Source: Saprospiraceae bacterium
GTDB lineage: Bacteria > Bacteroidota > Bacteroidia > Chitinophagales > Saprospiraceae
Length of the DNA: 64,000 bases
Direction of reading: 5' to 3'
NCBI GenBank assembly: GCA_020436935.1
Contig: JAGQWX010000013.1
Coordinates: 1-64,000 of the forward strand
Within the stretch, counting starts at the first letter, position 1. Each line of letters opens with the position of its first letter. Shown one piece after another: positions 6,268-25,963 of the stretch. The notes beneath the pieces were generated by a model, which was given only the letters and a program-made list of their open reading frames with translations, searched no databases and was not told the DNA's origin. Both the position numbers and the translations under genes were made by a program.

Positions 6268-7056
6268 CTATGACAAGTCCAAGCCTAAACGGATGGCCCT
6301 TTCTACAGGCGAACAATCTGTATCCTCCTCAGAAAGAGAAAATTCACCTCTTAACAACAAAGGTGGTTGCGCCATGAATTTAGGTGTTATTCCATGATGC
6401 GGCTGGGCAGAATGAACCAGGAAAGGATGACACAAGTAAATGGTCCCCGCCTTTCCGGTGGCATACACTTCCCTTCTTTTCGGCAGCTCATCCAGCCTGT
6501 TTGCAATTTCCATAAAGGAAAGACCTTCATCGCCTTTCTTTGAAAGTAATTGGGCCACATCGACATGAGAACCTTCATAAATGACTGTGGGCGCATCGTT
6601 CTCGGTCACATCGGAATACAAAACCAACATCAGTAGAGCCCTACCTTTCGATTTAACATTGACCCTCCATTCAAAAAAATTACCCGGGTCCTTCCCCGGA
6701 ATGCTCGCATCAACGTGTTTACCAATATCATTCGGCTGCTTATCAGATGGAAATCGGACAGGAAATGTACCAACACTCATGCAAGGAATCCATTTATCCT
6801 TACCGATCAATTGATCAAAAGCAGTAAACAATTTTGGACTATTCACGGATTGGATAAAAGGTTCATCTGAATACATTCCCAAACGAATGACCGGCTCAAG
6901 CCACGTTGAAGGATCCGACTTATCACATGGAAGGTCGTTCCAGAGAATTTCCAATGCAGCATTGGCAATTTCCTTTGAAAATGCACTTTCCAGACGAACA
7001 AAACCACTGGAAATAAATTGCTCAATCTCTGCTTTATTTAACGTTTCTGACATCAT
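6268..7056 (-). CDS. Phytanoyl-CoA dioxygenase (PhyH) family protein
   Basis: A 262-residue protein of the Fe(II)/2-oxoglutarate oxygenase superfamily. The iron ligands are visible as H114-x-D116 (GKHVDAS) and a distal histidine in the CHPFLVHSAQP stretch (His210 or His215). Length and motif spacing fit PhyH-like hydroxylases, which hydroxylate small molecules; the substrate cannot be read. It stands alone on the minus strand, with a terminator hairpin at its 3' end and a long non-coding stretch upstream. The start could be the first or second Met of MMSETL. Confidence 0.8.
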   Translation of the reverse strand: MMSETLNKAEIEQFISSGFVRLESAFSKEIANAALEILWNDLPCDKSDPSTWLEPVIRLGMYSDEPFIQSVNSPKLFTAFDQLIGKDKWIPCMSVGTFPVRFPSDKQPNDIGKHVDASIPGKDPGNFFEWRVNVKSKGRALLMLVLYSDVTENDAPTVIYEGSHVDVAQLLSKKGDEGLSFMEIANRLDELPKRREVYATGKAGTIYLCHPFLVHSAQPHHGITPKFMAQPPLLLRGEFSLSEEDTDCSPVERAIRLGLDLS

Positions 7057-7737
7057 AATTTTGTTTTAAAAAGCCCGCACAGACAACCAGTCCTCCCAAA
7101 TGAACCCAACTATACATCGACTATGTTCAAAAAATTGAATCAATTTTTTTGGCAATTGGAACTCAATATTGGAACAAAGCCCGATTACACAAATAATTAC
7201 TTGTGTTTGCTGTATTACAACCACCATTAGAAAATGTGCAAACTAGATTTTGTGATCATCCGTAGGCTTGTTTTTTTTTAATAAATTGTATGAATAAATT
7301 AAGTGCTCCAAATGCATGAGGCACGCCGCTTAAAGAAATAAGCTTAGACAGAAAAATTAAAGCATTACAGTCATTCTCATCAAACAAAAATAATAATGAT
7401 CTATTAGCCCGCCAAACAAAAGCTGATCAAATTGACAATGAACGGGCGGACCATTAGGCACACCTCAAATCTGAACACAAATACCCTGCAATATTTAGTC
7501 TTTAGGCTACCTCTAAGCCTTGCAATCAGGACCGATATTGATGAATTATTCAAAAAACAGTCAAATATCAAGCTATAAATGCCTGTTATCGAATTACTTG
7601 TACAAAATGAACAGTATATTTTGACATGAATTAATTATATTACCATTTGTAACCAAGAGTATCCTCGGCCGCCACAAGATTAATTGGAATATAAAGCAGG
7701 TATAATCAACAAATCGTCAAACCAAAATTAGAGCGAA
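7057..7737. other. Gene-free stretch between divergent genes
   Basis: About 680 bases with no plausible gene on either strand. It must hold the promoters of the divergent genes at 7056 and 7738. An A/T-arm hairpin (CAAAAAATTG/CAATTTTTTTG, 7128-7151) and a small GGCT...AGCC stem near 7506-7522 are the only structure noted. Confidence 0.5.
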
Positions 7738-8922: not shown

Positions 8923-9318
8923 ATGAAAAAAGTTGAAGTTGTTGCAGCTGTAATCTTTTGGGAAGATTTAGTTCTATGTGTGCAAAGGCCAAAAAATAAA
9001 CTTCATTACATATCTGAAAAATTTGAATTTCCAGGAGGAAAAATTGAAAAAGGAGAGACCAAAGAAGAGGCTTTAGTGCGCGAATTATTGGAGGAATTGA
9101 ATCTTTCAACAAAAATTGAATCTTTTTTTCTTACTGTTGTTCATGAATATCCTGATTTTGAGTTAACCATGCATAGTTATTTATGTAAAGTTGAATCAAA
9201 AGATCTTATACTACATGAACACATTGATAGTAAATGGTTGAAAATTGATGAACTGAGTTCACTTGATTGGGCAGCAGCTGATATACCTATAGTTGAAAAA
9301 ATTATCTTGAATGGATGA
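8923..9318 (+). CDS. Nudix hydrolase (MutT-like)
   Basis: A 131-residue Nudix protein. The Nudix box is clear: G39-x5-E45-x7-R53-E54-x2-E57-E58, with the usual Gly after EE replaced by Asn60. The family cleaves nucleoside diphosphate-linked substrates such as oxidised dNTPs with Mg2+. Its stop codon lies inside the start of the helicase gene (8-base overlap, 9311-9318), so the two are translationally coupled and probably work together. In that setting it may act on a nucleotide made or consumed during defence rather than on 8-oxo-dGTP; this is inference. Confidence 0.85.
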   Translation: MKKVEVVAAVIFWEDLVLCVQRPKNKLHYISEKFEFPGGKIEKGETKEEALVRELLEELNLSTKIESFFLTVVHEYPDFELTMHSYLCKVESKDLILHEHIDSKWLKIDELSSLDWAAADIPIVEKIILNG

Positions 9319-12300
9319 TCTAATCCAAAGTTTCAATCTAAGTTTACAAACAGGGTACATAGATAAATCCATATTATCTAAATTGGAATATCAACCTGAA
9401 TTGCTAGTCAATCAAAAGAATCCACCCATAAAAGTACTCTCAACCATTATACAAGAACTTGAAAATTGTAGTGAGTTCTATATTTCTGTTGCCTTTGTCA
9501 CTACTAGTGGTGTAGCCACTATTATTAACACTCTGAAAGTGCTTGAAAATCGCGGTGTAAAAGGTAAAATATTGGTATCCCAATATTTAAATTTCACTCA
9601 ACCAGAGGCAATGAAACGACTTCTAAAGTTTAAAAATATAGACCTTAGAATTGCTATTTCAGGAAATGCACATACCAAGGGCTATATCTTCAAGAGCAAA
9701 AACTATTATAACTTAATAGTAGGAAGTAGTAATTTAACAGCTCAAGCGTTATCCACAAATAAGGAATGGAATATCAAAATCTCTGCACTTGACAAAAGTG
9801 GGATCGTCGAACGAGTTTTAAATGAATTTCATTTAGATTTTGAAAATGGAAGTTCTGTCACATCTGAATACATTTTGAAATACGAAGAATTATATAAAAG
9901 TCAATTCCTAATTTATCAAAAAAATAGACTCGAACGCTTAACTGAATTTGATTTAAAGAAAAGACCAAATTCAATGCAAGTGGATGCACTATATACTCTT
10001 CAAAAATTAAGGTCTGAGGGTAAAAATAAAGCACTTATAATTTCAGCCACTGGAACAGGAAAAACTTATTTATCGGCATTCGATGCCAAAGCATTCAACC
10101 CAAAGAGGTTGCTTTTTGTTGTTCATCGCCTTACAATTGCCAAAGATTCATTAAATACATTTCAAAGCTTATTTGGCAAAAGTAAAAAAATGGGGTTGTA
10201 TTCAGGGTCTCAAATAGATTTGAATTGTGATTTTATTTTCTCCACAATTCAAACTATTTCTAAATTCAATCATTTGGAGAACTTCACTAAAGATCATTTT
10301 GATTACATAATAATAGATGAATCTCATCGGTCTGGTGCGGATTCCTATCTAAGATTAATTAAGCATTTTTCGCCTAAATTCTTACTTGGAATGACTGCCA
10401 CACCAGAGAGAACAGATGGCAATGATATTTTTCAACTTTTTGACTACAACATTGCTTATGAAATCCGTTTAAGTAGAGCAATGGAAGAAGAAATGTTGAG
10501 TCCTTTCCATTATTATGGGGTAACAGATTTATCTATAAATAATATCGAGGTCGATAACAAATCGGATTTTAGATATTTAATTTCGAGTGAACGTGTTGAA
10601 CGTATTATTGAACATGCGAATTTTTATGGGTGTGATAATGGAATAACCAGAGGATTAATCTTTTGCTCTAGAAAAAATGAAGCAATAGAATTATCTAATC
10701 TATTTAATAAAAAGGGCTTTAAAACTATTGCTTTAACAGGAGATAGTTCTGAAGAAGAAAGAACTAATTCGATAGAGAAATTGGAGACAGACATATTGGA
10801 TGAAAAACTTGATTACATATTTACTGTAGATATATTTAATGAGGGGATTGATATCCCAAAAATTAATCAGATTATCATGCTTCGCCCCACAGAGTCGGCA
10901 ATCATTTTCATTCAACAATTAGGCAGAGGATTAAGAAAGGTTGATGGGAAGGGCTATTTAACAGTGATTGATTTCATTGGAAACTATGAAAATAATTATC
11001 TCATTCCTATTGCTCTATATGGCGATACCTCCTATAATAAGGACTCATTAAGGAAGTTAATTGCAGAAGGCAGTAGAATGATACCCGGAGCTTCAACCAT
11101 CAATTTTGATGAGATCACCAAAGAAAGAATTTTTCAATCTATTGATTCTGCCAATATGCAGAAATTTACTGATTTAAAAAAGGAATATAATCTTTTAAAA
11201 TTCAAGTTAGGTCGCAGGCCAATGATGATGGATTTTATTGATCATGGTTCTCGAGATCCTTTTTTAATTGTAGATTACTCAGATTCATATTATAATTTTA
11301 TTCTGAAAGTTGAAAAAGACCACAATTTAGATTTAACCATACATCAGGTAAAACTTTTGGAGCTGTTTTCTAAAGAAATTAACAATGCAAAAAGAGTTGA
11401 GGAGAGCTTTATTCTCAAAATAATGATCGAACAAGGTAATCTATCTGTGGATTATTTAAGAACCAAGCTTCTTGAGAAATATTTTTATTCCATCACAGAT
11501 GAAACGATTAAATCATGTATATGTAATTTAAATTTTAAGTTTGTTCGAAAGGAAGAAAAAATCATATACCTCAAAAATCACTCACTTCATTTTCATGATG
11601 AATTTTTAGAATCATTGAGCAATCCAACGTTCATTACATTTCTTTTAGATTCTGTAAACTATTCTATTCATACCTTTGATACCTCATATAAAAAAGAAAA
11701 TTTTAAAAATGGATTAATCCTATATAATAAATACAGTCGCAAAGATGTATGTCGACTGCTTAATTGGGAAAAGGATATTAGTAGTACTATTTATGGTTAT
11801 CGCTCTTTTGGTGGAGTTACACCTTGTTTTGTTACTTATCATAAATCTGAGCTAATAGACAACACAATTAATTACAATGATCACTTCATTGACCAATCAA
11901 CGTTTGCTTGGGAATCAAGGTCGAATAGAAGACTTGAAAGTAACGAAATAAAAGATGTAACAAGCTCAAAGCGAATTTTACTTTTCGTAAAGAAACAGGA
12001 TGGTGAAGGAACTGACTTTTACTTTTTGGGTGATGTTTCAATTGTACCTAATTCTGTCGAACAAAGTTACATGCCTGATTCGCATTTACCTGTAGTACAT
12101 TTTAAATTCCACCTTGATCGACCAGTGATTGATAGTCTTTATCGATATATTACTACTGACATATTAAAGCCTAGTCCAAATGTTCAACAAGCCGTTAAGC
12201 AAAGTAAAATTGTTCCAATTCTTGAATCCATAAATGCTGAAAAAGAACTGATAAATCCAATTCCCTTTTATGATTTCTATGCTGCAGCTGGTTCGTTTAG

Positions 12301-12703
12301 TGAAATGCAATCAGAAAAAAATTTTAAGTTTATTGAAGGGCCAAAGAATAGTGAGAATAAGGATTATTTTGCATGCCGAATCGTTGGTGAATCAATGAAC
12401 AGGGTTATTCCAAACGGATCGATTTGTTTGTTCAAAACATATGCTGGAGGTAGCAGAAATGGGAAAATTGTGTTAGTCGAAAACATGGATATTCAGGATC
12501 CCGATTTCAATTCAGCATTTACCATCAAAACCTATTCTAGTGAAAAGTCAGTTTCAGAGGAATCATGGGAACACTTGACTATAGTATTAAGACCAAACTC
12601 ATTTGACAAATCGTATGAAAACATTATCATTACTCAAGAGAACGCATCATCAATGAGAGTTGTGGGGGAGTTTGTTGAAATTTTGAATATAGACAATATA
12701 TAA
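9311..12703 (+). CDS. PLD nuclease / SF2 helicase / DUF3427 / S24-like peptidase fusion
   Basis: An 1130-residue protein with four parts. Residues 40-150 are a phospholipase-D-type nuclease half-site (H121-x-K123, then GSSNLT at 138-143). Residues 220-560 are a superfamily 2 helicase: Walker A ATGTGKT 246-252, DESH 336-339, TAT 362-364, QQLGRGLR 535-542. About 800-955 looks like DUF3427 (KYSRKDVCRLLNW, FVTYHK, FVKKQDGEGTDFYFLG). Residues about 1015-1125 resemble the LexA/UmuD S24 peptidase fold, with GESM Ser1028 and TIKT Lys1073 as a possible Ser-Lys dyad and LRPNS near the end. It starts inside the Nudix gene. A role in defence against foreign DNA is likely but inferred. The gene is much more A/T-rich than the metabolic loci. 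Confidence 0.85.
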   Translation: MDDLIQSFNLSLQTGYIDKSILSKLEYQPELLVNQKNPPIKVLSTIIQELENCSEFYISVAFVTTSGVATIINTLKVLENRGVKGKILVSQYLNFTQPEAMKRLLKFKNIDLRIAISGNAHTKGYIFKSKNYYNLIVGSSNLTAQALSTNKEWNIKISALDKSGIVERVLNEFHLDFENGSSVTSEYILKYEELYKSQFLIYQKNRLERLTEFDLKKRPNSMQVDALYTLQKLRSEGKNKALIISATGTGKTYLSAFDAKAFNPKRLLFVVHRLTIAKDSLNTFQSLFGKSKKMGLYSGSQIDLNCDFIFSTIQTISKFNHLENFTKDHFDYIIIDESHRSGADSYLRLIKHFSPKFLLGMTATPERTDGNDIFQLFDYNIAYEIRLSRAMEEEMLSPFHYYGVTDLSINNIEVDNKSDFRYLISSERVERIIEHANFYGCDNGITRGLIFCSRKNEAIELSNLFNKKGFKTIALTGDSSEEERTNSIEKLETDILDEKLDYIFTVDIFNEGIDIPKINQIIMLRPTESAIIFIQQLGRGLRKVDGKGYLTVIDFIGNYENNYLIPIALYGDTSYNKDSLRKLIAEGSRMIPGASTINFDEITKERIFQSIDSANMQKFTDLKKEYNLLKFKLGRRPMMMDFIDHGSRDPFLIVDYSDSYYNFILKVEKDHNLDLTIHQVKLLELFSKEINNAKRVEESFILKIMIEQGNLSVDYLRTKLLEKYFYSITDETIKSCICNLNFKFVRKEEKIIYLKNHSLHFHDEFLESLSNPTFITFLLDSVNYSIHTFDTSYKKENFKNGLILYNKYSRKDVCRLLNWEKDISSTIYGYRSFGGVTPCFVTYHKSELIDNTINYNDHFIDQSTFAWESRSNRRLESNEIKDVTSSKRILLFVKKQDGEGTDFYFLGDVSIVPNSVEQSYMPDSHLPVVHFKFHLDRPVIDSLYRYITTDILKPSPNVQQAVKQSKIVPILESINAEKELINPIPFYDFYAAAGSFSEMQSEKNFKFIEGPKNSENKDYFACRIVGESMNRVIPNGSICLFKTYAGGSRNGKIVLVENMDIQDPDFNSAFTIKTYSSEKSVSEESWEHLTIVLRPNSFDKSYENIIITQENASSMRVVGEFVEILNIDNI

Positions 12704-12887
12704 CCTAAATATGTTACTTTTTTAGTGTCATTCTTATTCTCCTATTTTCGCAATTACTTTATTGCATCAAATTGAAGAAGTTGTATTAATAACATCAACA
12801 TACTGACGTTGACCTATTTTCACAGCATCCGTTTACTAATAGAAATTGTTCTGATTTTACTTTTCACTATGGGTTAATGTCTGTTTT

Positions 12888-13215
12888 TATAACTTATAAG
12901 GGCATCAATTTTGACATCATTTCGGCTATAAGTGCTCCGATAGTTGCCTATATTCTTTTCAACTCTCTAGGCAATAAGGATAAAATCTTGTTGATCTGGA
13001 ACATTTTTTAACTACTGCTTTTATTGAATGTGGACATTACTGGCATTTTCGCCATTCCCTCGCCTATACAAAAAATAGCCTTCGACCAGCCAAATCTTGC
13101 CATTTTATATTTTCCGTACAATTTATTGCCAACAGTTGTGGTCCTAATGGCGCTATTTGGCCATTTAGTAGTGATCAAGCGATTGATGGTAAAAATAAAT
13201 GCTTCACATGAATGA
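12888..13215 (+). pseudogene. Remnant of a small multi-pass membrane protein
   Basis: Read through one TAA (after LIWNIF), the frame gives hydrophobic stretches and SPIQKIAFDQPNLAI, a pattern I associate with an uncharacterised Bacteroidota membrane protein, ending GHLVVIKRLMVKINASHE. The N-terminal part is missing. The last 53 bases (13155-13207) recur with a few changes at 17017-17069, in a second, hollowed-out relative. Confidence 0.55.
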
Positions 13216-13297
13216 ATTTGATTGAGAGAAGTAATAGCGATTCGCGAATTGGAAACAAACACTATTTATTTCTTCAGTGTAAAATACCGGCATAAAA

Positions 13298-13330
13298 TAA
13301 TAAAGCTGGGCTTCTTCCCGAAGTCAAGCA
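13298..13330. repeat. Degenerate copy of the GGGCTTCTTCCCG hairpin repeat
   Basis: AATAAAGCTGGGCTTCTTCC followed by CGAAG matches better copies at 17791-17840 and 30390-30440. Here, as at 30.4 kb, it lies before the 3' end of a CsgG-like gene, so it seems to have been copied along with it. Confidence 0.55.
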
Positions 13331-13372
13331 CTTCATAAACTATTATTAAGTCAATATCTTGTGGATTCAAAA

Positions 13373-13880
13373 CGATTTTAAGGTATTGATGGCAAAGGAC
13401 AAGCCAAATAGAAAATCATTCTCAGAAGGTATGATGTAAGTATTGATCGTGATATTTAGTTTGCTTGATCTCAATGAAAATCTACTTGTGATGAAGACCG
13501 AACTTTTGATAGCAAAATAATAACGGCAGTTGAGTCTTTTGAATCGGGCAACTTCCGTAGGTAATTCTTTGGTGGTGAGTTCACAATTTACGGTATCGTT
13601 TTTATTGCCTCCTGTTTTTGTACAAGTGTGAAGGTCGTGAATGTGGCAACTTCTAATACATTTTTATTGTCACTGTTACCGTTCAGTATGGAAATATTGG
13701 CCACAAATAGCCCTTGGTCCATGTCGGATATAACTGGTATGGTTTCTACCAAAGCCCGTCACTTGCTTTTACTAAGGTATTGTTTTTCAAACAAGTAACC
13801 AATCTGAAAGTAATACAGCAGGCATCATAACCTCTACAGTTTCCAGAACTTTGTAAGATGTCTGGTATAAGGCTGCCATT
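13373..13880 (-). pseudogene. Decayed partial copy of the CsgG-like gene at 30830-31906
   Basis: Base by base, this stretch follows 30834-31330 with many substitutions and small gaps. Shared blocks include GACAAGCCAAAT, CTTTTGAATCGGGC, GGTATTGTTTTTCAAAC and GGCATCATAACCTC. It corresponds to the C-terminal part on the minus strand; frames are broken and the 5' part is absent. An old duplication fragment beside the helicase genes. Confidence 0.75.
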
Positions 13881-14024
13881 TTCTTTATTATTTGTCTAAA
13901 ACTAGCAGACACTGTCTGTTGAATATATTATAGATACAGTTGCTGGCAATTTTGCATGAATCACATTTATCATTACCTATCCCATTTTTATCCCACATTC
14001 AAGTTTTGTGATTAACTTACCCCT

Positions 14025-16811
14025 GTGGTATTGAAAACTTCCAATCCAATACCTCTGAACAATAGCAATGGTCAAAAAAGTTTGGGTATGTTGACTGAAT
14101 ATCCCCGGGATATAAAATTTAAATACAGCTGGCGAAAATACCAGAAAAGGGTACTGGACAACTTGCAGGAGCATCTCTCGGACGGGCATCTCCACGTGAT
14201 TGCTCCGCCAGGCTCGGGCAAAACAGTCTTAGGACTGGAGGTCGCTGTTCGAATAAATCAGCCAACACTCATTTTGACGCCGACCATAGCCATCCGTAAT
14301 CAATGGATACAACGCTTTTGTGAGCTGTTTCTTCAAACCGACCAGGTACCGGAATGGATTTCTACAGACATTCGCCGTCCTAAATTCATGACCATTGCCA
14401 CCTACCAGGGATTGCACGCAGCTTGCAACAATTTGAAAATTGAGGAGGAAGATCTGGAAGAAGAAACTGAGGAAAAAACTGAGTTCCCTAAATTATCCAA
14501 TCCAAGCTTTGACCTCATTCTTAATGGGCTAAAAGCTCAAAAAATCAAAACGATTGTAGTAGATGAAGCACACCATTTAAAAAATGAATGGTGGCAAACC
14601 ATTTCGAGGATTAAAGAAGGTCTGGAACCAATTATTGTAGGATTGACTGCTACTCCACCCTACGACGTTTCTTTCACAGAATGGCAGCGATATATCGAAT
14701 TAAATGGGCCCGCTGATACTGAAATTTCTATTCCCGAACTGATTGTTGAAGAAGATTTATGTCCACACCAGGACTATGTCTATTTCACATTGCCCACACA
14801 GGAAGAGAAAAAAAACATTGATGACTTCCGGAAGAATATCGATAAGCTATTCTCGGAAATTCAAAATGATGAAATTATTATTCAGGCCATTGAAGAAAGT
14901 CCCATTTGGCAGCAGCCACTTGAACAGCTGGATTGGATTTACAACAATATTTCATACTACTCTGCTTGTTTGATCTTTCTGCATGCGAACCATCGCACCA
15001 TTCCTGAAACACATCTTGAAATTATTGGAGATAAGAATTTTAAAATCCCTGATCTCGATTATGAATGGATAGAAATACTTCTGGATTACTTCCTCTTCAA
15101 AGAGAAGAAAACATTTATACCATATCAAGAACATATAAAAACACTTGAAAACAAGCTTAGAAGAGCGGGAGCCCTTGAAAAAGGGCAAATCAACTTTACT
15201 CAAAACAAAAATACAACCGGCTTTTTGATTTCGAGTCTTAGCAAGTTAAATGGCATCAAAGAAATCGTTGATTTTGAATACCAAAAATTAGGGGAAAAAT
15301 TGAGGCTGGTGATCCTGACAGACTTCATCCGAAAAGAATATTATATCAATGCTGATGAAAATAATTTGCCATTAAATAAAATTGGTGCACTTCCAATCTT
15401 TGAAAAACTCAGACGAGAAAACAGTGATCATAAAAAAATTGCAGTGCTTACAGGTTCTTTGGTCATTCTTCCTTTGAGTGCATTCTCCTCCTTTAAAAAC
15501 AAAGCCGCAAAGAAAGGCATCGTGCAATTCAATTCAAGTCCGGTTCCTTTTGACAAGAATTATATCCTCATCAACCAATCCGAGCAAATCAAACAAGACA
15601 TCGTACACATTGTGACCCAAATTTTTCAACTTGGAGAAATTGAAGTTTTGATTGGTACTAAATCCTTGCTTGGGGAAGGGTGGGATGCCCCGGCAATCAA
15701 CACCTTGATTCTCGCTAGTTTTGTGGGTTCTTTTGTGCTATCCAATCAAATGCGTGGCCGCGCGATCAGGACCCAAAAAGGACATGATGATAAAACTGGA
15801 AACATCTGGCATGTGGTATGTATTGACCCTACTGCTCCAGAAGGTGGCGACGATTTTGATTTATTGAAAAGACGTTTTAAAAGTTTCGTTGGCGTTTCCT
15901 TCAATAAATTGCCTCAGATAGAATCAGGAATAGGAAGGTTAAACCTGTCAGAACATATGCATGAAAAAAAAGTGGTCGCGAAAAAAAACGAAGAAATGTT
16001 TCGCCATGCAGGAGACAGAGAAAGCTTGAAAAAAAGATGGAAAGCTGCCCTTAAAACAGGAAATACACTTGTAGAAGAAATCAAAATTCCTTTTCCATCT
16101 GACATGACCTACAAAACAGTGAAATCTCTGTACTTCAATAGAACCATTGCCTATTTGCTGGCTACTTTAGTTTCAGGAATAATTGGCTTTGTTCTGGACA
16201 TTTTACAGATGCTCGGCAATGGGATGAAACACATAAAATCAACCCAAGAACTTTATATTATTTTAGCGATTATCGGGGCAATAGGGGTGGCAATTTTTGG
16301 GCGGCTCACCTTAAAGACATTAAGGTTGTATTTTAAATACAGGGACATTTCAAAAGACATTCAACACATTGGCAATGCACTTTTAAATTCATTAATTATG
16401 GCCCAAAAAATTAAAACAGATCACAGCAAACTGCACGTACAAACATCAGCTGATAAATTTGGTGCAGTATATTGTCATTTGGTCGGTGGAACTACTTTTG
16501 ATAAATCAACTTTCATCAACGCGTTGACGGAAATTATTGCACCAATTGATAATCCACGTTATATAATTGTCAGAAAAAGCAGATTTATGCTTTTTATAGC
16601 CCAAAAGGATTATCATGCTGTTCCTGAATTGCTCGGCAGAAACAAGAATTTAGCTGAATATTTCCAAAGCCAATGGAAAAAATTTGTTGGCTCATCTGAC
16701 TTGGTTTTCGCCAGGAGTGTTGAAGGAAGAAAATTGATTCTGAAATCAAGAATAAAATCATTGGCGGCGCAATTTGACAAAAAAGTTGAACATGTAAATA
16801 AATGGAGATGA
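14025..16811 (+). CDS. DEAD/DEAH-box (SF2) helicase with two C-terminal membrane segments
   Basis: A 928-residue protein. Helicase motifs: Walker A APPGSGKT 60-67, DEAH 180-183, TAT 208-210, and QMRGRAIR in the second RecA lobe near residue 580. An acidic insert (EEEDLEEETEE, about 140-150) lies before the DEAH box. Two strongly hydrophobic segments at about 705-730 and 742-765 form a likely membrane hairpin, followed by a soluble domain of about 150 residues that I do not recognise. A membrane-anchored helicase is unusual and suggests defence or DNA-uptake work at the envelope. The start is the GTG at 14025 or the ATG at 14088; no clear ribosome site decides. It sits alone among gene remains. 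Confidence 0.75.
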   Translation: MVLKTSNPIPLNNSNGQKSLGMLTEYPRDIKFKYSWRKYQKRVLDNLQEHLSDGHLHVIAPPGSGKTVLGLEVAVRINQPTLILTPTIAIRNQWIQRFCELFLQTDQVPEWISTDIRRPKFMTIATYQGLHAACNNLKIEEEDLEEETEEKTEFPKLSNPSFDLILNGLKAQKIKTIVVDEAHHLKNEWWQTISRIKEGLEPIIVGLTATPPYDVSFTEWQRYIELNGPADTEISIPELIVEEDLCPHQDYVYFTLPTQEEKKNIDDFRKNIDKLFSEIQNDEIIIQAIEESPIWQQPLEQLDWIYNNISYYSACLIFLHANHRTIPETHLEIIGDKNFKIPDLDYEWIEILLDYFLFKEKKTFIPYQEHIKTLENKLRRAGALEKGQINFTQNKNTTGFLISSLSKLNGIKEIVDFEYQKLGEKLRLVILTDFIRKEYYINADENNLPLNKIGALPIFEKLRRENSDHKKIAVLTGSLVILPLSAFSSFKNKAAKKGIVQFNSSPVPFDKNYILINQSEQIKQDIVHIVTQIFQLGEIEVLIGTKSLLGEGWDAPAINTLILASFVGSFVLSNQMRGRAIRTQKGHDDKTGNIWHVVCIDPTAPEGGDDFDLLKRRFKSFVGVSFNKLPQIESGIGRLNLSEHMHEKKVVAKKNEEMFRHAGDRESLKKRWKAALKTGNTLVEEIKIPFPSDMTYKTVKSLYFNRTIAYLLATLVSGIIGFVLDILQMLGNGMKHIKSTQELYIILAIIGAIGVAIFGRLTLKTLRLYFKYRDISKDIQHIGNALLNSLIMAQKIKTDHSKLHVQTSADKFGAVYCHLVGGTTFDKSTFINALTEIIAPIDNPRYIIVRKSRFMLFIAQKDYHAVPELLGRNKNLAEYFQSQWKKFVGSSDLVFARSVEGRKLILKSRIKSLAAQFDKKVEHVNKWR

Positions 16812-18163: not shown

Positions 18164-19783
18164 TCAATGGGCTGCATCTGCCTTATCTGGCCAAATCCTT
18201 GTTAAGTCTGTTGTTGTTCCTTCTATCAATTCAATACTATTTGATCCCTCTATTATTGTCAACTGATTAAAAGGTTCAGATGGAAAAAATATTTGGGTCA
18301 TGACAGTTCTGCCGCTATCGGCAAACAATTCCAATGAGCTTACATCCAGGTATATCAACATATCTATTTCATTCTTGGTATAAGAAGCCAAAGCGGTATG
18401 CTTGCCTGCAAAATCATTTGAAAATGTTGAGTCCCCCGCCTTTGATCTGTCCACAAAGTAGGAAGTGGAGTCGGAATTATAGCCAAAATCAATGTATTCA
18501 TTTTTGCTATTTGACAGCCTTAAAACAATAGATCCACTGGTTGGATTTTTAAACTTGAGGGCAATTTTTTGAAGCGGATGATTTGCAAACGCCGACAATG
18601 TTTTCTCCCCTTCATACAAGCCTGGTTCCAATTTTTTTATTTCACCTTCCAGTGAAACCAATTCTTTCACCGGGTTTGATCTCAATTCAAACTGATTGGC
18701 TGCATAGTGCAGTGTAAGGTTTCTGGGCAGAGTATTTGCACTTCGCCAAACTTCAGTAGGTACCACTTGAGCATAAAGCCAGTTGGACATCCATCCAATA
18801 AACAACCTTCGGCCATCTTCCTTGCTAATGTTGGACCAGGTTACACCGGCATAATTGTCTTTGCCGTGATCGACCCATTTGGCATTTCCAAGTGTTACAT
18901 GGGGAGCAAATCCAACATCAAGTGTAAATTTTTTACCATCGAAATCTCCAACAAAATATTGAGCTGCCGAGCCCCCGTTCGGTCCTCCGGGATTGATGCT
19001 GACCAAGAGCACCCATTTTGTCTCACCGGTTTCTTCTACTGGCATAGGAAATAAATCGGGGCATTCCCATACACCTCCATGTCCTCCATGTTCTGCTCCA
19101 AATTCTCCGGTCTCCTCCCAGGATTTAAAATCAGAAGAGGAATAAAACTTGATTCTGTCATCGGCTGCGAGAGTCATGATCCACTTTTTTTCAGGCTCAT
19201 ACCACATGACTTTGGGGTCTCGAAAATTTTTAATTCCCGGATTTGGAAGAACGGGATTCCCTTCATATTTCTCCCAGCTCCGTCCCTTATCATTGCTGAA
19301 GGCCATGCTTTGGTACTGGAACGTCGTACTTCCGGCTTTCTCCTGATTTACATCATGATGGGTAAATATGGCAATCAAAGGCCCAGTGCCATTGGCGCCG
19401 AGTCCTGATGTATTGTTTTCATCGTATACGGCACTTCCTGAAAATATATACCCCAAAGAATCCGGATAAATTGCAATAGGCAGATGTTCCCAATGGATCA
19501 GGTCGCTGCTCACGGCATGCCCCCAATGCATGGGACCCCAGATCGTAGAATCCGGGTAATGCTGATAAAACAAATGGTATTCACCTTCGAAAAAGACCAT
19601 TCCATTGGGGTCATTCATCCAGTGAGCTTCCGGAGAAAAGTGAAATTGAGGTCGGTGCTTCTCATTCATATAAAAATCATTTTTTAGGTTTTTACCGTTT
19701 TGATCTGCATTGCACGAAAACAAAAAGGGTAAAAAATTGATGAGGAAAATTATCCTTTTCAAGCTTGTATTTGGATTGAACAT
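18164..19783 (-). CDS. GH32 fructan beta-fructosidase (levanase/inulinase type), lipoprotein
   Basis: A 539-residue glycoside hydrolase family 32 enzyme that releases fructose from levan, inulin or sucrose. The lipoprotein signal has its cysteine at 24 (LPFLFSC). Catalytic residues are visible: nucleophile D58 in WMNDPNG, D189 in FRDP as transition-state stabiliser, and E240 in WECPDLFP as acid/base. A five-bladed propeller is followed by the beta-sandwich typical of the family. As a surface or periplasmic lipoprotein it feeds the SusCD pair upstream. It is the last gene of the fructan locus, 416 bases after the susD stop and beyond a large palindrome. Exo- or endo-action cannot be told. Confidence 0.9.
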   Translation of the reverse strand: MFNPNTSLKRIIFLINFLPFLFSCNADQNGKNLKNDFYMNEKHRPQFHFSPEAHWMNDPNGMVFFEGEYHLFYQHYPDSTIWGPMHWGHAVSSDLIHWEHLPIAIYPDSLGYIFSGSAVYDENNTSGLGANGTGPLIAIFTHHDVNQEKAGSTTFQYQSMAFSNDKGRSWEKYEGNPVLPNPGIKNFRDPKVMWYEPEKKWIMTLAADDRIKFYSSSDFKSWEETGEFGAEHGGHGGVWECPDLFPMPVEETGETKWVLLVSINPGGPNGGSAAQYFVGDFDGKKFTLDVGFAPHVTLGNAKWVDHGKDNYAGVTWSNISKEDGRRLFIGWMSNWLYAQVVPTEVWRSANTLPRNLTLHYAANQFELRSNPVKELVSLEGEIKKLEPGLYEGEKTLSAFANHPLQKIALKFKNPTSGSIVLRLSNSKNEYIDFGYNSDSTSYFVDRSKAGDSTFSNDFAGKHTALASYTKNEIDMLIYLDVSSLELFADSGRTVMTQIFFPSEPFNQLTIIEGSNSIELIEGTTTDLTRIWPDKADAAH

Positions 19784-20087
19784 TTTATAGTTTATTTATA
19801 TGGAATTCAAATGTTGTTGAAAATACTGTTAGGAATACGGAAAGTCCATTTTGCATGTGATGATATAATAAATCAGCCCGCCGCATAAAGCCTTTTAAAA
19901 AGCGGTCATGGAGGAAAGGTGCGCTGCAAAAATGCCAACATCAATATAATGTGCAAACCGAACTACCAATAAGCTTAAAACATTGAATATCAAAGGTATA
20001 AATATATATACTCGCAGTAATGCAGCGCTCAACCGGAACTTACGTGTTGCAGCTTCTTACCTCCAATGTTTAATAGAATAATGCATG

Positions 20088-20120
20088 GAAAATGGACAAT
20101 CCATTTTCCGACGAGTACTT
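20088..20120. repeat. Solo end of the TATACTTATCGG element family
   Basis: GGACAATCCATTTTCCGACG then AGTACTT (20094-20120) matches the right end of 30523-30686. It also folds on itself: GGAAAATGGA-CAA-TCCATTTTCC (20088-20110). The remainder of 19784-20199 has no gene. Confidence 0.65.
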
Positions 20121-20151
20121 GCACAAATTAAATCTATTTACCATATCAAAT

Positions 20152-20183
20152 AGAATGATGGTAGAGATCTCTACCATCATTCT
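20152..20183. terminator. 32-base perfect palindrome after susD
   Basis: AGAATGATGGTAGAGA (20152-20167) is followed directly by its exact reverse complement. It starts 17 bases past the susD stop (minus strand). The RNA would form a long stem without a T-run, so it may stabilise or trim the susCD transcript and lower GH32 expression rather than fully terminate. Confidence 0.65.
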
Positions 20184-20199
20184 GCAATTAACAAACGAT

Positions 20200-21912
20200 T
20201 TAATATCCGGGATTTTGTCGATACAATCCCTTTGTAAACGTAATCTCAGCCTGCGGAATAGGCAGATATTCATCCCGTCCTGCAGTAAATTTGGCTGTAC
20301 TTAAGAACGTTCTCCTTACTTTTTCTTTTGAAATATAATCATTCAATACTGGCTCGGCAATGCCCCATCTTACCAGATCAAAAAACCTTGACCCTTCAGT
20401 AGCAAACTCCAGTCGTCTCTCCCATTGAAGTGCTTTAAAGGCAAATTCCTGGGTCCAACCTGTGCTGGAATATGGTTTTACATTATAGTTGGAAGCAAAG
20501 GAACCGTCGGACTTCTTCAACTTAGCTGTACTGTTTGAGGCACGTATTCTGACCTGGTTGATCAAAGGAAGTGCCAAATCTTGCTGCCCCAATTGTATGT
20601 ATGCTTCCGCCAGAATCAATAAAACATCATCGTATCTGAGGATATCGTAATTTTTTGCAGTACCCATGAATGGTCCTAATTTGAAATAAGATCCGCTTGA
20701 TGCCAATTGCTGGAATCTCATGGTATGAAAATTGCCATAAACACCGGCGTCACGCACCCAGCTATTGCTGAAAGGCAGCGTATTGTCATACTTATAAACG
20801 TGTCCTTCAATGCCTACAGTATGATCTAATCTCGGATCTACAGTGGCCTTTGACAAGTCTGCAATTTGATTGTTGAATGTTTCAAAATTTGGCAGCCCAT
20901 TTGCATCGGTTGTATGTGCATTCACTAGGTTTTGACTACCCGCATGAAAACCACAACATCCATATTGCGGGGCTCCATGGGGATAATTCAAGCCATCTTC
21001 ATAGCTCATTCTACCTGCTGTAGTACCATCATTCACCGTAAACTGTATGGCAAATATGGATTCCGGGCCATTTTCTGTTTCAGGTAAAAAGTTATCTGCT
21101 ATATCGGCAGAAAGCATATATTTTCCTGAATTGATCACTGCATTGGCAAGGCTTACGACCTCCTGCAACCTTGATTTGTTGATGTTTACTACCCTGTGAT
21201 TTTCATCTTGTTCATATGCCTGATAAAGTCTCAATTTGGCCAAATAGGCTTGAGCAGCATGTTTGTTTGCTCTGGCTATTTCGGATTGAGAATCTGGTAA
21301 ATTGTCGATTGCAAATTGGAAATCCGAAGCAATTTTATTCCAGGACTCTTCATTTGACAAATCATTTGACACCAGCAAGATTTCTTCCTGGCTGGCATTT
21401 TCGTCAAAGATCGGAATATTTTTATACAACAATTTCATTGTAAAATAGCTGTGTGCACGTAGAAAATGGAGCTCGCCCAACCTTATCTTTTTCTCAGGAA
21501 AAGCAGATTCTTCAAGGCCATTTACCGCCCTCAGCGCAACATTGCACCTGGAGATAGATTTAAATAAATTTCTCCATGTTCTTGTCACAAATGCATCCAT
21601 TGTCGGCTGCACAAGATTATAATGTTCCAATGCATCGATTTCACCAACGTCTCCTGTACCTCCACCGCCTTTATAGGAATCATCAGATCTCACACTGCCA
21701 TAAACCCAATTGCTATATATAGGGCCTATCATATCCCCATTTCCGATGGCAGCATACGCCGAGGTAACCAATCCATCAATCGCTTTGGTGGATGTCAGAT
21801 CGGATGAAGACAATACACCTGTTGGCGTATAATCTAATTCTTTTTCACAAGAGCTGATGGCCAGAATACCAAATGCCAATAAGCCCAATAATATATTTTT
21901 TTTCATGATCAA
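20200..21912 (-). CDS. SusD/RagB outer-membrane glycan-binding lipoprotein (fructan locus)
   Basis: A 570-residue SusD-family protein with lipoprotein cysteine C22 (AISSCEKEL). The N-terminal helical repeats (AYAAIGNGD, RNLFKSISRCNVALRAV, LGELHFLRAHSYFTM) and the C-terminal closure (VLLILAEAYIQLGQ, WERRLEFATEGSRFFDLVRWG, YLPIPQAEI, NPGY) are all present. SusD proteins lie on top of the SusC channel and catch oligosaccharides. Starting 18 bases after susC, it is in the same operon. Next to GH32, fructokinase and a fructose-type sensor, the ligand is probably a fructan. Confidence 0.92.
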   Translation of the reverse strand: MIMKKNILLGLLAFGILAISSCEKELDYTPTGVLSSSDLTSTKAIDGLVTSAYAAIGNGDMIGPIYSNWVYGSVRSDDSYKGGGGTGDVGEIDALEHYNLVQPTMDAFVTRTWRNLFKSISRCNVALRAVNGLEESAFPEKKIRLGELHFLRAHSYFTMKLLYKNIPIFDENASQEEILLVSNDLSNEESWNKIASDFQFAIDNLPDSQSEIARANKHAAQAYLAKLRLYQAYEQDENHRVVNINKSRLQEVVSLANAVINSGKYMLSADIADNFLPETENGPESIFAIQFTVNDGTTAGRMSYEDGLNYPHGAPQYGCCGFHAGSQNLVNAHTTDANGLPNFETFNNQIADLSKATVDPRLDHTVGIEGHVYKYDNTLPFSNSWVRDAGVYGNFHTMRFQQLASSGSYFKLGPFMGTAKNYDILRYDDVLLILAEAYIQLGQQDLALPLINQVRIRASNSTAKLKKSDGSFASNYNVKPYSSTGWTQEFAFKALQWERRLEFATEGSRFFDLVRWGIAEPVLNDYISKEKVRRTFLSTAKFTAGRDEYLPIPQAEITFTKGLYRQNPGY

Positions 21913-21930
21913 TTGCTTAATGATTAATAG

Positions 21931-24900
21931 TTAAAATGATGCGTTGATTCCTAATGTGAAAGTCCTGGGAATGGGTATAGGGTCAAGATCAATTCTCTCA
22001 GGATCAGGACTTAAATAGCTCTTGTCTTTTATCCAGAAAAGATTGTCAGCCATTCCGTAGATTCTTAAACTTGAAAAAACAGACTTCGGAGAAAGGTTGT
22101 AGCCCAACTGCATGTTTCTTAATTTAAAATAAGAGGTGTTGACAATAAAATAATCTGATGTCCTTCCTTCCCCATTGTTGTCTTTTAATGTAAGTGCCGG
22201 TACATTGGTATCTGTATTTTGCGGAGTCCATGCATTAAAGACTCCCGGACCAACATTTTCACGGCCTCTCATGAGATTATTAAAGACAGTATACACATCA
22301 AAACCCTCTCTTCCGGCAACGCCTGAACCAAATAATGTAAAATCAAACATTTTATAGGATAAATCTACTCTAAGGCCATATTCTGCAGCCGGGAGTGTGG
22401 TACCAATCCAGGTTTGATCCAAGGCGTTGATTACTTTATCATTGTTGATGTCTACATATTTGATTCTGCCCGGTCCTGCGCCAATTTGAGTAGGTGCGGC
22501 ATCAACTTCTGATTGTGACTGGAACAAACCATCTGTTTTATATCCGAAGATGTCAAATTGAGAATGTCCTATGATGGTATTCTCCACATTTCCTGGATAA
22601 GCAGGTCGTACTTCTTCCGGGAGATCGGTTATTTTATCCCTAAAGTGGGTAATATTTGCTGTTATATTGTAATTCAAACCATTGGCAACACTTCCTCTGT
22701 ACCCAAGCATAAATTCCCAGCCTTTGTTGGATTTAGAAGCACCGTTTACTGCCCTGGTTTGCCCTTCACCAAGGGTAGCTGCAACTGGAGGAGTAATTAA
22801 AATGCCAGTTGTTTTGCGCGAGAAATAATCAAAAGAGCCGATCAATTTATTGTTGATAAAACCAAAATCTATCCCAGCATTGATTTCATCTGTGGTTTCC
22901 CACTTTAATCCTGAGTTTGGTGCCTGGGTCTGGACAAATCCGGATGGCAGGGTTCCTGTATTGGCTCCGGAAAGAGCATATGCAGTACCGATGTTCATAT
23001 ATTGCTCCCAAAATCCGCCGACAAGTTGCGCCTGTGTAGTACCATATCTCGTATCGAATAATCCAAATCTTGCAAGGTCACCAATCTGCTGGTTTCCAAC
23101 CCGACCTATGCCAACTCTAATTTTCAATTCATCAAACAGGCCATTGTCTGCCATAAAATTTTCTCTATCTATCCTCCAACCCAATGATGCGGCAGGAAAA
23201 ACACCATATCTGTTGTCCTCACCAAATCTGGAAGACCCATCTCTACGAATTGTAATTGCTGCCAGATACTTATCACTATAGTTATAGTCTACTCTGGCAA
23301 ATTGCGAAAATAGCCTGTTTCCTGTAGATCCTCCTGTAACGGTAGTATTTCCAGTGCCCGCATTAAGTGTAAAATACTCCTCTGTTTGCAAAGCATATCC
23401 TTCTTTTTTTGTGGTTTGAAAGTCAAAATCAGTTTTGATAAATTCCGTGCCCACTAAAAATTTCAAATTGTTCTTTTCATTGACATCCCAATCATATCTG
23501 ACCGTATTGGACCATGTGGTGCTTAAATAATGGTTTTGATCAAAAAACAAGCTGTTTGTCGTCCTGTTGAATGCTCCTTCGGAGAAAGTTGGCGTTATCA
23601 CTTTATTCAGAAAGTTGGCATTGTCGGCCCCAATATTTGTCTTAAAAAATAAATTTTTAATGGGTTGAACCTCTAAAAAAGCATTGCCAAATGCACTAAG
23701 TCTGTTTGCATTGTTCCATCGAGCGATGTTTTGCATGTGCAGGGGGTTATTTCTGTCCGAATACCCTGCGCCTGAAGCTCCGGCAAAAGTAATTCCATCT
23801 TTTTGATATACTGGAATGGTAGGCGCCAATGTGACGGCAAGGAAGGTAGTGGACGCACCGCCCAGGTCTCTTGCTGTCAAAGTTTCATTTGAACTTGCCA
23901 CTCTCAAATTCGTACCTAACCTCACCTTGTCATCGAAAGCTCTTGTGAGGGCATTGATGCTGCCACTGAGTCTGTCATACCCGGTGTATTTGAGCATTCC
24001 TGTATTTTTAAGCTGACCAAGATTGATCTCAAGTGAAGAATTTTTATTTCCATAAGAGGCTGTGAAATCATTTTTGGTGATGATGCCTGTTTTATACATA
24101 ACAGATTGCCAATCCGTATCACCCACCGGTGTATTTTGGTCGCCTCCTACAAAAGGTTTTAGAGTGACGCTGTTCAGCACAGGATTTGCGAAGTCATTGT
24201 TCCATGAAAAGTTATAAATGTCGCCATATCCAGCCGCAGGGTCCTGGCCGTCATTCACGGAGGCTTGCCAAAGTGCCTTGCCTCTATCCAAAGAATTAAG
24301 CATCTCAAATCTCATAGATTTTTCTGATTGCGAAGCAATGCTGCTATTGAATTGAAAAGCAACCTTACCATTGGTATCTCCTCCATTTTTTGTGGTAACA
24401 ATGATGACGCCGTTGGAAGCTCTAGCACCATAAATTGACTCGGCTGATGCATCTTTCAACACCTGGACTGAGGCGATATTAGCGGGATTCATGTTTTGAA
24501 AAACTTCCGGACGGGTAGTTGGGATTCCATCGATCACATACAAAGGATCATTGTTTCCCAATGTATTGGCACCACGAATCAAGATTCTTGAGTTGGAACC
24601 ATTGGGAGAACCGTCCTTTTCTATATACAATCCCGGCACTCTTCCCTGCATAGCTTGCATGACGTTTCCAGAACTGTTATTGATCAGGGGTTTCATTTCG
24701 ACCACGGCTACAGACCCTGTTAAATCTTCCTTGCGCTGGGAAGTATATCCTACCACAACGACTTCAGAAAGTATATTCCCCTGATTCAGCGCAATATTTA
24801 TGGCATTCTGATCTCCAATGACCACTTCTGTTGTTTCATAACCAATGTATGATACAATGAGTGACATGCCCTCTTCGGCAATGTTTATGGAAAACGCGCC

Positions 24901-25068
24901 GTCTATGTCAGTAATGGTTCCCTGGTTGGTACCTTTCAACAATATGCTTGCACCAACTAAGGCTTCTCCTGAGCCTGCGTCAGTTACAAGTCCGGTAATG
25001 GCTCTTTGGGCGATGGCCCCCTGCAATGCCAAAAGCATCACAAAAATTAAACACCTTGTTTTTTTCAT
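21931..25068 (-). CDS. SusC/RagA TonB-dependent outer-membrane transporter (fructan locus)
   Basis: Chosen start MKKTRCLIFVML at 25068, because the 16 residues upstream in the open frame carry no signal peptide and overlap the kinase gene. After the signal peptide come a carboxypeptidase-like beta domain (ITGLVTDAGSGEALVGASI), the TonB box region (VVVGYTSQRKEDLTGSV), the plug (LYVIDGIP, SIYGARASNGVIIVTTK) and a beta barrel ending TFTLGINASF. Length of about 1045 residues is normal. It imports oligosaccharides into the periplasm with energy from TonB-ExbBD, which is not in this window. It forms the import complex with the SusD encoded just downstream. Confidence 0.93.
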   Translation of the reverse strand: MKKTRCLIFVMLLALQGAIAQRAITGLVTDAGSGEALVGASILLKGTNQGTITDIDGAFSINIAEEGMSLIVSYIGYETTEVVIGDQNAINIALNQGNILSEVVVVGYTSQRKEDLTGSVAVVEMKPLINNSSGNVMQAMQGRVPGLYIEKDGSPNGSNSRILIRGANTLGNNDPLYVIDGIPTTRPEVFQNMNPANIASVQVLKDASAESIYGARASNGVIIVTTKNGGDTNGKVAFQFNSSIASQSEKSMRFEMLNSLDRGKALWQASVNDGQDPAAGYGDIYNFSWNNDFANPVLNSVTLKPFVGGDQNTPVGDTDWQSVMYKTGIITKNDFTASYGNKNSSLEINLGQLKNTGMLKYTGYDRLSGSINALTRAFDDKVRLGTNLRVASSNETLTARDLGGASTTFLAVTLAPTIPVYQKDGITFAGASGAGYSDRNNPLHMQNIARWNNANRLSAFGNAFLEVQPIKNLFFKTNIGADNANFLNKVITPTFSEGAFNRTTNSLFFDQNHYLSTTWSNTVRYDWDVNEKNNLKFLVGTEFIKTDFDFQTTKKEGYALQTEEYFTLNAGTGNTTVTGGSTGNRLFSQFARVDYNYSDKYLAAITIRRDGSSRFGEDNRYGVFPAASLGWRIDRENFMADNGLFDELKIRVGIGRVGNQQIGDLARFGLFDTRYGTTQAQLVGGFWEQYMNIGTAYALSGANTGTLPSGFVQTQAPNSGLKWETTDEINAGIDFGFINNKLIGSFDYFSRKTTGILITPPVAATLGEGQTRAVNGASKSNKGWEFMLGYRGSVANGLNYNITANITHFRDKITDLPEEVRPAYPGNVENTIIGHSQFDIFGYKTDGLFQSQSEVDAAPTQIGAGPGRIKYVDINNDKVINALDQTWIGTTLPAAEYGLRVDLSYKMFDFTLFGSGVAGREGFDVYTVFNNLMRGRENVGPGVFNAWTPQNTDTNVPALTLKDNNGEGRTSDYFIVNTSYFKLRNMQLGYNLSPKSVFSSLRIYGMADNLFWIKDKSYLSPDPERIDLDPIPIPRTFTLGINASF

Positions 25069-25087
25069 TTTTTGTTTTGTTAAGTAA

Positions 25088-25963
25088 TTAAAAATATTGC
25101 TCAAGAGGAATGGCACCAGCTTTTGATGCTACCTCTGCCCCAAGCCTGCAGCCTTTTTCAAGGCATGCGTCAATAGAAAATCCATTTAAATAGTGATCAA
25201 GAAATCCAGCTAAAAAAGCATCTCCACTTCCTACGGTGTCTACAACCTCTACTTTGATACCTGGAGCATAAAAACTTTCGCCTTTTATATAGGCATCAGC
25301 GCCGTCTTCTCCTTTTGTCAATACGATAAGATGAGGTCCGGCAGCGTCCTCCAGTATCGCCTCAATGGTTTCTGAAGTGGTTTTTTGAAAATATTGTGCT
25401 ATTGTTTCAAGTTCTTCGTCGTTGAGTTTCAACACATCACAATTGCTGATCATCTTCATGATGAAGTCTTTGGAAAAATAAGAGCATCTCAAATTGAGAT
25501 CCAACACTCTGAGCTTGGCATGTTTGGCCATTTGTTCGAGTGTTGACCTATTCTTATCCTCTCTGAGAGCAAGTGTCCCAAATACCAGGGCGCTGGCTTT
25601 AGATATTGTTTCAATAATTTCCGGACTGGATTGGATTTCATCCCATGCGACATGTTCTTTGATCGTATAGCTTGGTTTTCCGGAATTATCCAAACTTACC
25701 TCCACGGTGCTCGTCGGCCTGTTCTGACTGGTCTGTAACAAGCCGCAGTTCACCGGATATTCCTTGAGAACCGATAAAATTTCTTCTCCCAATTCATCCT
25801 TACCTATTGAAGATAAAATATATGACCCGTTGCCCAACAAGGCAAAATGAGCTGCAACATTGAATGGTGCTCCTCCCAATTTTTTACCCTGAGGCAAGAG
25901 GTCCCAAAGGATTTCGCCAAAACAAACTATCGTATTTCTCATCTTATTTTCTGAGGGTTTCAT
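25088..25963 (-). CDS. PfkB-family sugar kinase, probable fructokinase
   Basis: A 291-residue ribokinase-like kinase: CFGEILWDLLPQGKKLGGAPFNVA at the N-terminus (substrate lid and binding), and DTVGSGDAFLAGF near residue 242, with D248 as catalytic base and the anion hole. It fits fructokinases that turn fructose into fructose-6-phosphate with ATP. The ATG overlaps the stop of the transporter gene by 4 bases (ATGA), which supports this start and co-expression. Together the two genes give uptake and trapping of free fructose. Confidence 0.88.
   Translation of the reverse strand: MKPSENKMRNTIVCFGEILWDLLPQGKKLGGAPFNVAAHFALLGNGSYILSSIGKDELGEEILSVLKEYPVNCGLLQTSQNRPTSTVEVSLDNSGKPSYTIKEHVAWDEIQSSPEIIETISKASALVFGTLALREDKNRSTLEQMAKHAKLRVLDLNLRCSYFSKDFIMKMISNCDVLKLNDEELETIAQYFQKTTSETIEAILEDAAGPHLIVLTKGEDGADAYIKGESFYAPGIKVEVVDTVGSGDAFLAGFLDHYLNGFSIDACLEKGCRLGAEVASKAGAIPLEQYF

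Follow-up and report, generated by a model that had tools for sequence, protein, structure and literature searches.

A SauUSI-family type IV restriction enzyme with a LexA-like C-terminal tail, encoded with a Nudix hydrolase predicted to act on modified cytosine nucleotides, in a Saprospiraceae bacterium

SauUSI is a type IV restriction enzyme in which a single chain carries a PLD nuclease, an SF2 motor, a coupler and an SRA reader, and its target is S5mCNGS, with 5-hydroxymethylcytosine (5hmC) accepted in place of 5-methylcytosine (5mC) (PMC7913695). The paper on its structure nowhere mentions a Nudix hydrolase (PMC7913695), but MutT homologues adjoining SauUSI homologues have been noted in passing in Streptococcus (PMC7641849), as has the co-location of PDC-S07, a candidate family of PADLOC, with type IV restriction-modification in 23 of 23 Streptococcus suis cases (PMC12813430). 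This gene pairing has been noted earlier without explanation, and our literature search combining nudix and type IV restriction returned no paper whose title or abstract concerns it. Here we describe such a pair in a Saprospiraceae bacterium (GCA_020436935.1), within positions 1 to 64,000 of contig JAGQWX010000013.1, the 64,000-nucleotide stretch called the window below. What is new is a LexA-like tail on the SauUSI-type nuclease, for which we found no precedent in the literature searched, and the match between the predicted substrate of the Nudix partner and the target of the nuclease.

The two overlapping genes proposed in the initial annotation of this window are both in place, with 8 bases (9311-9318) common to their open reading frames (ORFs), and Pfam assigns them the domains that the annotation had named: NUDIX in the protein of 131 amino acids (aa), and PLDc_2, ResIII, Helicase_C, DUF3427 and Peptidase_S24 in the 1130-aa protein. 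The parts of the locus are as follows.

8923-9318, + strand: Nudix hydrolase ORF, 131 aa; matches PADLOC candidate family PDC-S07 over its full length (9.7e-47), nearest PDB entry 3GWY (2.3e-37)
9311-12703, + strand: SauUSI-family type IV restriction enzyme with a C-terminal S24/LexA-like tail, 1130 aa; match to PDB 7clg, Pfam
9428-9835, + strand: PLD-family nuclease domain, aa 40-175; Pfam, with H121, K123, N141 and E152 invariant and H121 aligned with SauUSI H119
9959-11161, + strand: SF2 DNA translocase motor, aa 217-617; Walker A K251, DEsH E337, boundaries by analogy with SauUSI
11162-11725, + strand: helical coupler, approximately aa 618-805; from alignment with SauUSI, whose boundaries are published (PMC7913695)
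11726-12154, + strand: SRA target-recognition domain (end of DUF3427), aa 806-948; 5mC pocket Y830, F840, V841, D857, W867
12155-12259, + strand: variable linker, aa 949-983; 1 of 37 columns invariant over aa 949-985, low model confidence (pLDDT)
12260-12685, + strand: S24 peptidase or LexA C-terminal-domain-like tail, aa 984-1125; PF00717, LexA fold
12287-12292, + strand: predicted scissile bond A993-G994 (FYAAA/GSFS); AAG invariant in 18 of 18 SauUSI tails and 25 of 25 tails of all kinds
12392-12394, + strand: predicted catalytic Ser1028 (GESM), invariant
12527-12529, + strand: predicted catalytic Lys1073 (TIKTY), invariant

Residues 2-948 of the large protein match residues 2-952 of SauUSI (PDB 7clg, E 2.5e-231), and the PADLOC model mREase_IV matches it at 6.1e-241. 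Pfam and alignment together give the single-chain order of SauUSI: PLD, SF2 motor, coupler, SRA. Conservation was assessed over 18 tailed proteins, that is, the window protein and 17 homologues 51-78% identical to it, in which the PLD residues, the Walker and DEsH residues and all five residues of the 5mC pocket listed above are invariant. In SauUSI this pocket is formed by Y831, F841, I842, D858 and W868 (PMC7913695), so that V841 in place of I842 is a conservative change and the other four residues are identical. The positions singled out earlier for mutation (H121, E337 and S1028) are the expected catalytic ones and likewise do not vary in the 18 proteins. By every feature testable here from sequence, the 1130-aa product belongs to the SauUSI family of type IV enzymes and carries an added domain. 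The SauUSI chain stops after the SRA domain, whereas the window protein continues for ~180 aa that hold a LexA-like autoprotease. The initial annotation was therefore right to see a candidate two-gene defence unit, but its statement that no characterised system could be named does not stand, given the match to SauUSI and to PDC-S07. Enzymes of the SauUSI type cut m5C- or hm5C-containing DNA in an ATP-dependent manner and have no cognate methyltransferase beside them; of the ORFs tested from 3.7 to 18 kb of the window, none has a methyltransferase domain.

Relatives of the nuclease were drawn from public genomes and their neighbours scored by script with a limit of 250 bp. Within that distance a Nudix accompanies the SauUSI-type gene in 78 of the 83 collected genes: with both genes on the same strand it lies upstream in 65 and downstream in 2, in 9 it is downstream and on the opposite strand, and in Clostridium algoriphilum (L055) it is fused N-terminally to the nuclease itself. 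For comparison, a Nudix lies equally close to 29 of 378 other ORFs of the same loci, a count in which the nuclease's own partner is still included. Among 395 sampled Bacteroidota genomes, the same 9 hold both a high-scoring full-length SauUSI match and a 3GWY-like Nudix (E 1e-25). Canonical Staphylococcus aureus SauUSI also has a Nudix 1 bp upstream (record L126, 4953-7836), in a copy that is identical to 7clg over the first 497 residues and frameshifted later. Because the SauUSI match runs end to end and the Nudix-nuclease arrangement recurs across several phyla, the pair is far beyond what chance would give.

The solved structure nearest to the window Nudix is 3GWY of Bacteroides fragilis (Q5LBB1; 50% identity), whose reported kcat/Km values (M-1 s-1) are 4.8e6 for 5-methyl-dCTP (5-Me-dCTP), 4.4e6 for 5-hydroxymethyl-dCTP (5-hm-dCTP), 8.5e4 for 5-hydroxy-dCTP (5-OH-dCTP) and 6.7e6 for 5-Me-CTP (PMC5158307). 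The window protein has in common with 3GWY, and with Escherichia coli NudG (33% identity), the Nudix box, here with Asn replacing one Gly, and an Asp at NudG position D118; this Asp occurs in 89 of 89 partner Nudix sequences, while MutT has Asn there. In a tree, 3GWY falls among the Bacteroidota partner sequences with support of 85-93, although few columns were available and many forks are unresolved. Both 3GWY and NudG were characterised as stand-alone enzymes, whereas the window Nudix is encoded beside a SauUSI-type nuclease. Its PADLOC family, PDC-S07, is a candidate defence family only, for which we found no mechanism in the literature searched. On this evidence the window Nudix is probably a 5-methyl-dCTP/5-hydroxymethyl-dCTP pyrophosphohydrolase. 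Since these two nucleotides are the precursor forms of the bases cut by SauUSI, the pair would attack modified cytosine at two levels.

Related Nudix proteins were also seen in other settings. In Collinsella aerofaciens (L130, 5001-5990) one is fused to Vsr, a mismatch endonuclease whose role is the repair of damage stemming from 5-methylcytosine. On a Treponema saccharophilum plasmid (L129, 3598-5420) a PDC-S07 Nudix overlaps an AbiLi-like AAA ATPase, with two cytosine methyltransferases nearby, and in the genus-mate genome G398 (L114, 1252-3637) a PDC-S07-type Nudix is followed by a 658-aa SLFN-g3 helicase-domain protein, a nuclease-helicase-like partner.

In each of the 18 tailed proteins, PF00717 is matched by the final ~145 residues. 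The model of the window tail (pLDDT 77.5) is closest to LexA C-terminal domains (Foldseek 1.2e-5), and VIA-align superimposes it on E. coli LexA over 123 residues with Z 13.3 at 3.0 A. A PDB sequence search with the tail gave no phmmer match, and a profile search gave chance matches only; the assignment to LexA is accordingly based on the Pfam match, the fold and the motif. RecA-mediated self-cleavage is determined by an Ala-Gly bond and a Ser-Lys dyad (PMC8565304), and the corresponding A993-G994, S1028 and K1073 are all present and invariant in the 18 SauUSI-type tails; what had been called a peptidase-like module is thus a real S24 domain with a complete LexA-type self-cleavage set. Fold, bond and dyad are those of the C-terminal autoproteases of LexA, UmuD and CI, which are joined to a DNA-binding repressor or a polymerase subunit, whereas the window tail is joined to a restriction nuclease. 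Tailed proteins extend to Balneolota and occupy more than one place in the SauUSI tree. A single origin of the tail can therefore not be claimed, and the fact that it does not fall within one SauUSI clade suggests that it was transferred, or gained and lost repeatedly.

When 296 Bacteroidota genomes were searched with a profile of the tail, two further kinds of host protein emerged: helicase proteins of ~730 aa in 6 genomes, of which the three tested are GIY-YIG plus SLFN-g3, and an HsdR type I subunit in 1 genome. Across these three host kinds AA/G, Ser and Lys are kept in 25 of 25 tails. In all six cases (L147-L152; for example L148, 4786-6978 with 6978-7307) a ~110-aa gene precedes the ~730-aa tailed protein on the same strand. 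Three of these small partners were tested and match the MazG-like family PF12643, and one, compared with the PDB, is nearest to DCTPP1/RS21-C6, an enzyme that also hydrolyses 5-Me-dCTP. SauUSI-type and GIY-YIG/SLFN-g3 nucleases bearing the same tail thus adjoin unrelated families (Nudix and DCTPP1-like) that include 5-Me-dCTPases, and the second arrangement forms an independent parallel to the first. When two of the GIY-YIG/SLFN-g3 pairs were scanned with PADLOC, the MazG-like proteins matched no model and the nucleases matched weakly. The HsdR-like subunit (L153, 5036-8584) ends in a LexA-like tail with VAAG, RSM and VKR motifs and lies in a multi-gene locus with more restriction-like genes.

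We propose, and consider fairly probable, that the pair is a two-layer defence against DNA containing 5-methyl- or 5-hydroxymethylcytosine, in which the LexA-type tail serves to remove the nuclease after damage. The SRA domain would flip out the modified cytosine, the SF2 motor would translocate, and the paired PLD domains would break the DNA. The co-translated Nudix would meanwhile hydrolyse free 5-Me-dCTP and 5-hm-dCTP, starving a phage that builds modified DNA and also keeping modified bases out of host DNA, where the chromosome would become a target. Breaks in the DNA, among them any that the enzyme itself makes in host DNA, would build RecA filaments that stimulate self-cleavage at A993-G994, leaving a nuclease that ends in ...AAA, a ClpXP-like C-degron, so that its removal would amount to built-in restriction alleviation. 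The computation shows what the proteins are, the pocket residues, the gene pairing and the fold of the tail with its catalytic set intact; from these we infer the substrate of the Nudix in this organism, the cleavage of the tail, RecA as its trigger and the loss of activity that would follow. The terminal Ala-Ala resembles an ssrA-type ClpXP signal and recalls the known fate of cleaved LexA. One form that restriction alleviation is known to take is the removal of HsdR by ClpXP in response to DNA damage (PMC12707154); the likeness lies in a translocating nuclease that is removed after DNA damage, and an HsdR-S24 fusion does exist. For HsdR of EcoKI, however, the degron for ClpXP was not found and no self-cleavage is described (PMC4231737), whereas the window protein has a predicted self-cleavage that would expose ...AAA. 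The kinases reported to act on 5-Me-dCMP and 5-hm-dCMP come from phages (PMC10742078), which favours a role for the Nudix during infection.

The consequences of tail cleavage could also be the reverse of those proposed, with the S24 tail locking the nuclease in an inactive state, from which RecA filaments formed on damaged or incoming DNA would release it. UmuD is activated through this same kind of cleavage, and the tail, standing directly after the SRA reader, could block it. Yet SauUSI, whose single chain has no tail, is active (PMC3874153), most homologues also lack the tail, and the conserved AAA at the new end suits disposal better. We therefore think activation by cleavage unlikely. Nor do we give much credence to a tail that does not cleave itself and instead serves for dimerisation or regulation, or cuts a different protein in trans: LexA C-domains do dimerise, and the cleavage loop, of low pLDDT, is not reliably modelled, but every tail, on all three host proteins, keeps the scissile bond and both catalytic residues. 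Removal of the nuclease by self-cleavage, which we prefer, must itself be tempered by several observations. The lack of the tail in most SauUSI homologues means that it is dispensable for restriction; the full-length model (pLDDT 66) is too poor to place the tail relative to the nuclease; conservation of AA/G may reflect protease specificity alone, not a degron; and an SOS-box-like site, CTAA-N5-TTAG, is absent upstream of the pair, matches in the window being fewer than in shuffles.

For the Nudix, a function confined to host self-protection, in which salvaged 5-Me-dCTP is removed and phage is not directly affected, is a possibility that we take seriously if tentatively, as its likely substrates match the nuclease's own target and it lies near SauUSI almost everywhere; with the 5-Me-dCMP and 5-hm-dCMP kinases encoded by phages, however, the pool would be expected mainly during infection. 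That it is instead a general sanitiser of 8-oxo-dGTP or other oxidised nucleotides, travelling with the nuclease by chance or for repair, seems quite improbable to us. The MutT and NudG NCBIfam models do score about equally on the window Nudix, but 3GWY prefers the 5-Me and 5-hydroxymethyl nucleotides over 5-OH-dCTP by ~50-fold (PMC5158307), the Asn of MutT is replaced in every partner sequence and the pairing is near-universal. Two points also count against the substrate that we predict: 50% identity to 3GWY is no guarantee of it, and D118 is a moderately specific marker, because a MutT-like paralogue in the same genome, which no SauUSI-type gene adjoins, carries it too.

The pair is absent from five genus-mates and from the other same-family genomes of that sample, and is present in another genome of the family, G162. 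The absence from the genus-mates indicates an accessory pair, not the vertically inherited core genes that the initial annotation would have counted against a defence role; the gene flanking the pair upstream has no close match in the genus-mates at E 1e-60. The pair is AT-rich, as had been remarked (~31% GC, against mostly 38-44% in the rest of the window), though the 48-57 kb region is likewise AT-rich, and standard promoter and terminator scans showed no excess. The surrounding island of toxin and helicase genes did not hold up: PADLOC, run on 40 other window ORFs of at least 100 aa, returned one weak helicase match and no other defence gene, and we reject the reading of the window as a defence island. 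The neighbouring genes that were examined are metabolic, apart from a DUF6922 gene and this weakly matching helicase. Among 85 flanking ORFs of 13 tailed relatives the commonest PADLOC matches were the candidates PDC-S05 and PDC-S23, with 3-5 members each, and the enrichment in defence islands that had been suggested as a check was not shown in these flanks.

Downstream of the nuclease, ~1.3 kb (12704-14024) contains no ORF of at least 90 aa and is possibly degraded; it is followed at 14025-16811 by a 928-aa XPB/ResIII-like helicase with weak similarity to PbeA, which is not part of the pair. Further along, 18164-27309 is a possible fructan-type utilisation locus, with a GH32 enzyme identified by Pfam and adjoining ORFs that resemble, by eye only, SusD/SusC, sugar kinase and transporter genes.

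If the proposed functions are correct, they would give a concrete reason for the widespread and unexplained pairing of PDC-S07 with type IV restriction, in that modified cytosine would be cleared from both the nucleotide pool and the DNA. They would also suggest how a modification-dependent nuclease that has no protective methyltransferase might be held in check: by a built-in SOS-type switch. We suggest, with less confidence than we attach to the pair itself, a rule that may hold generally in Bacteroidota and also outside the phylum: nucleases that depend on modification may be paired with destroyers of the matching modified dNTP, whether Nudix or DCTPP1-like, and a mobile LexA-type autoprotease tail may link several restriction nucleases, among them type I HsdR, to RecA for self-deletion upon chromosome breakage. 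If true, this would add policing of the nucleotide pool to restriction biology, link it to RecA signalling, and point to a second, unrelated system of the same design.

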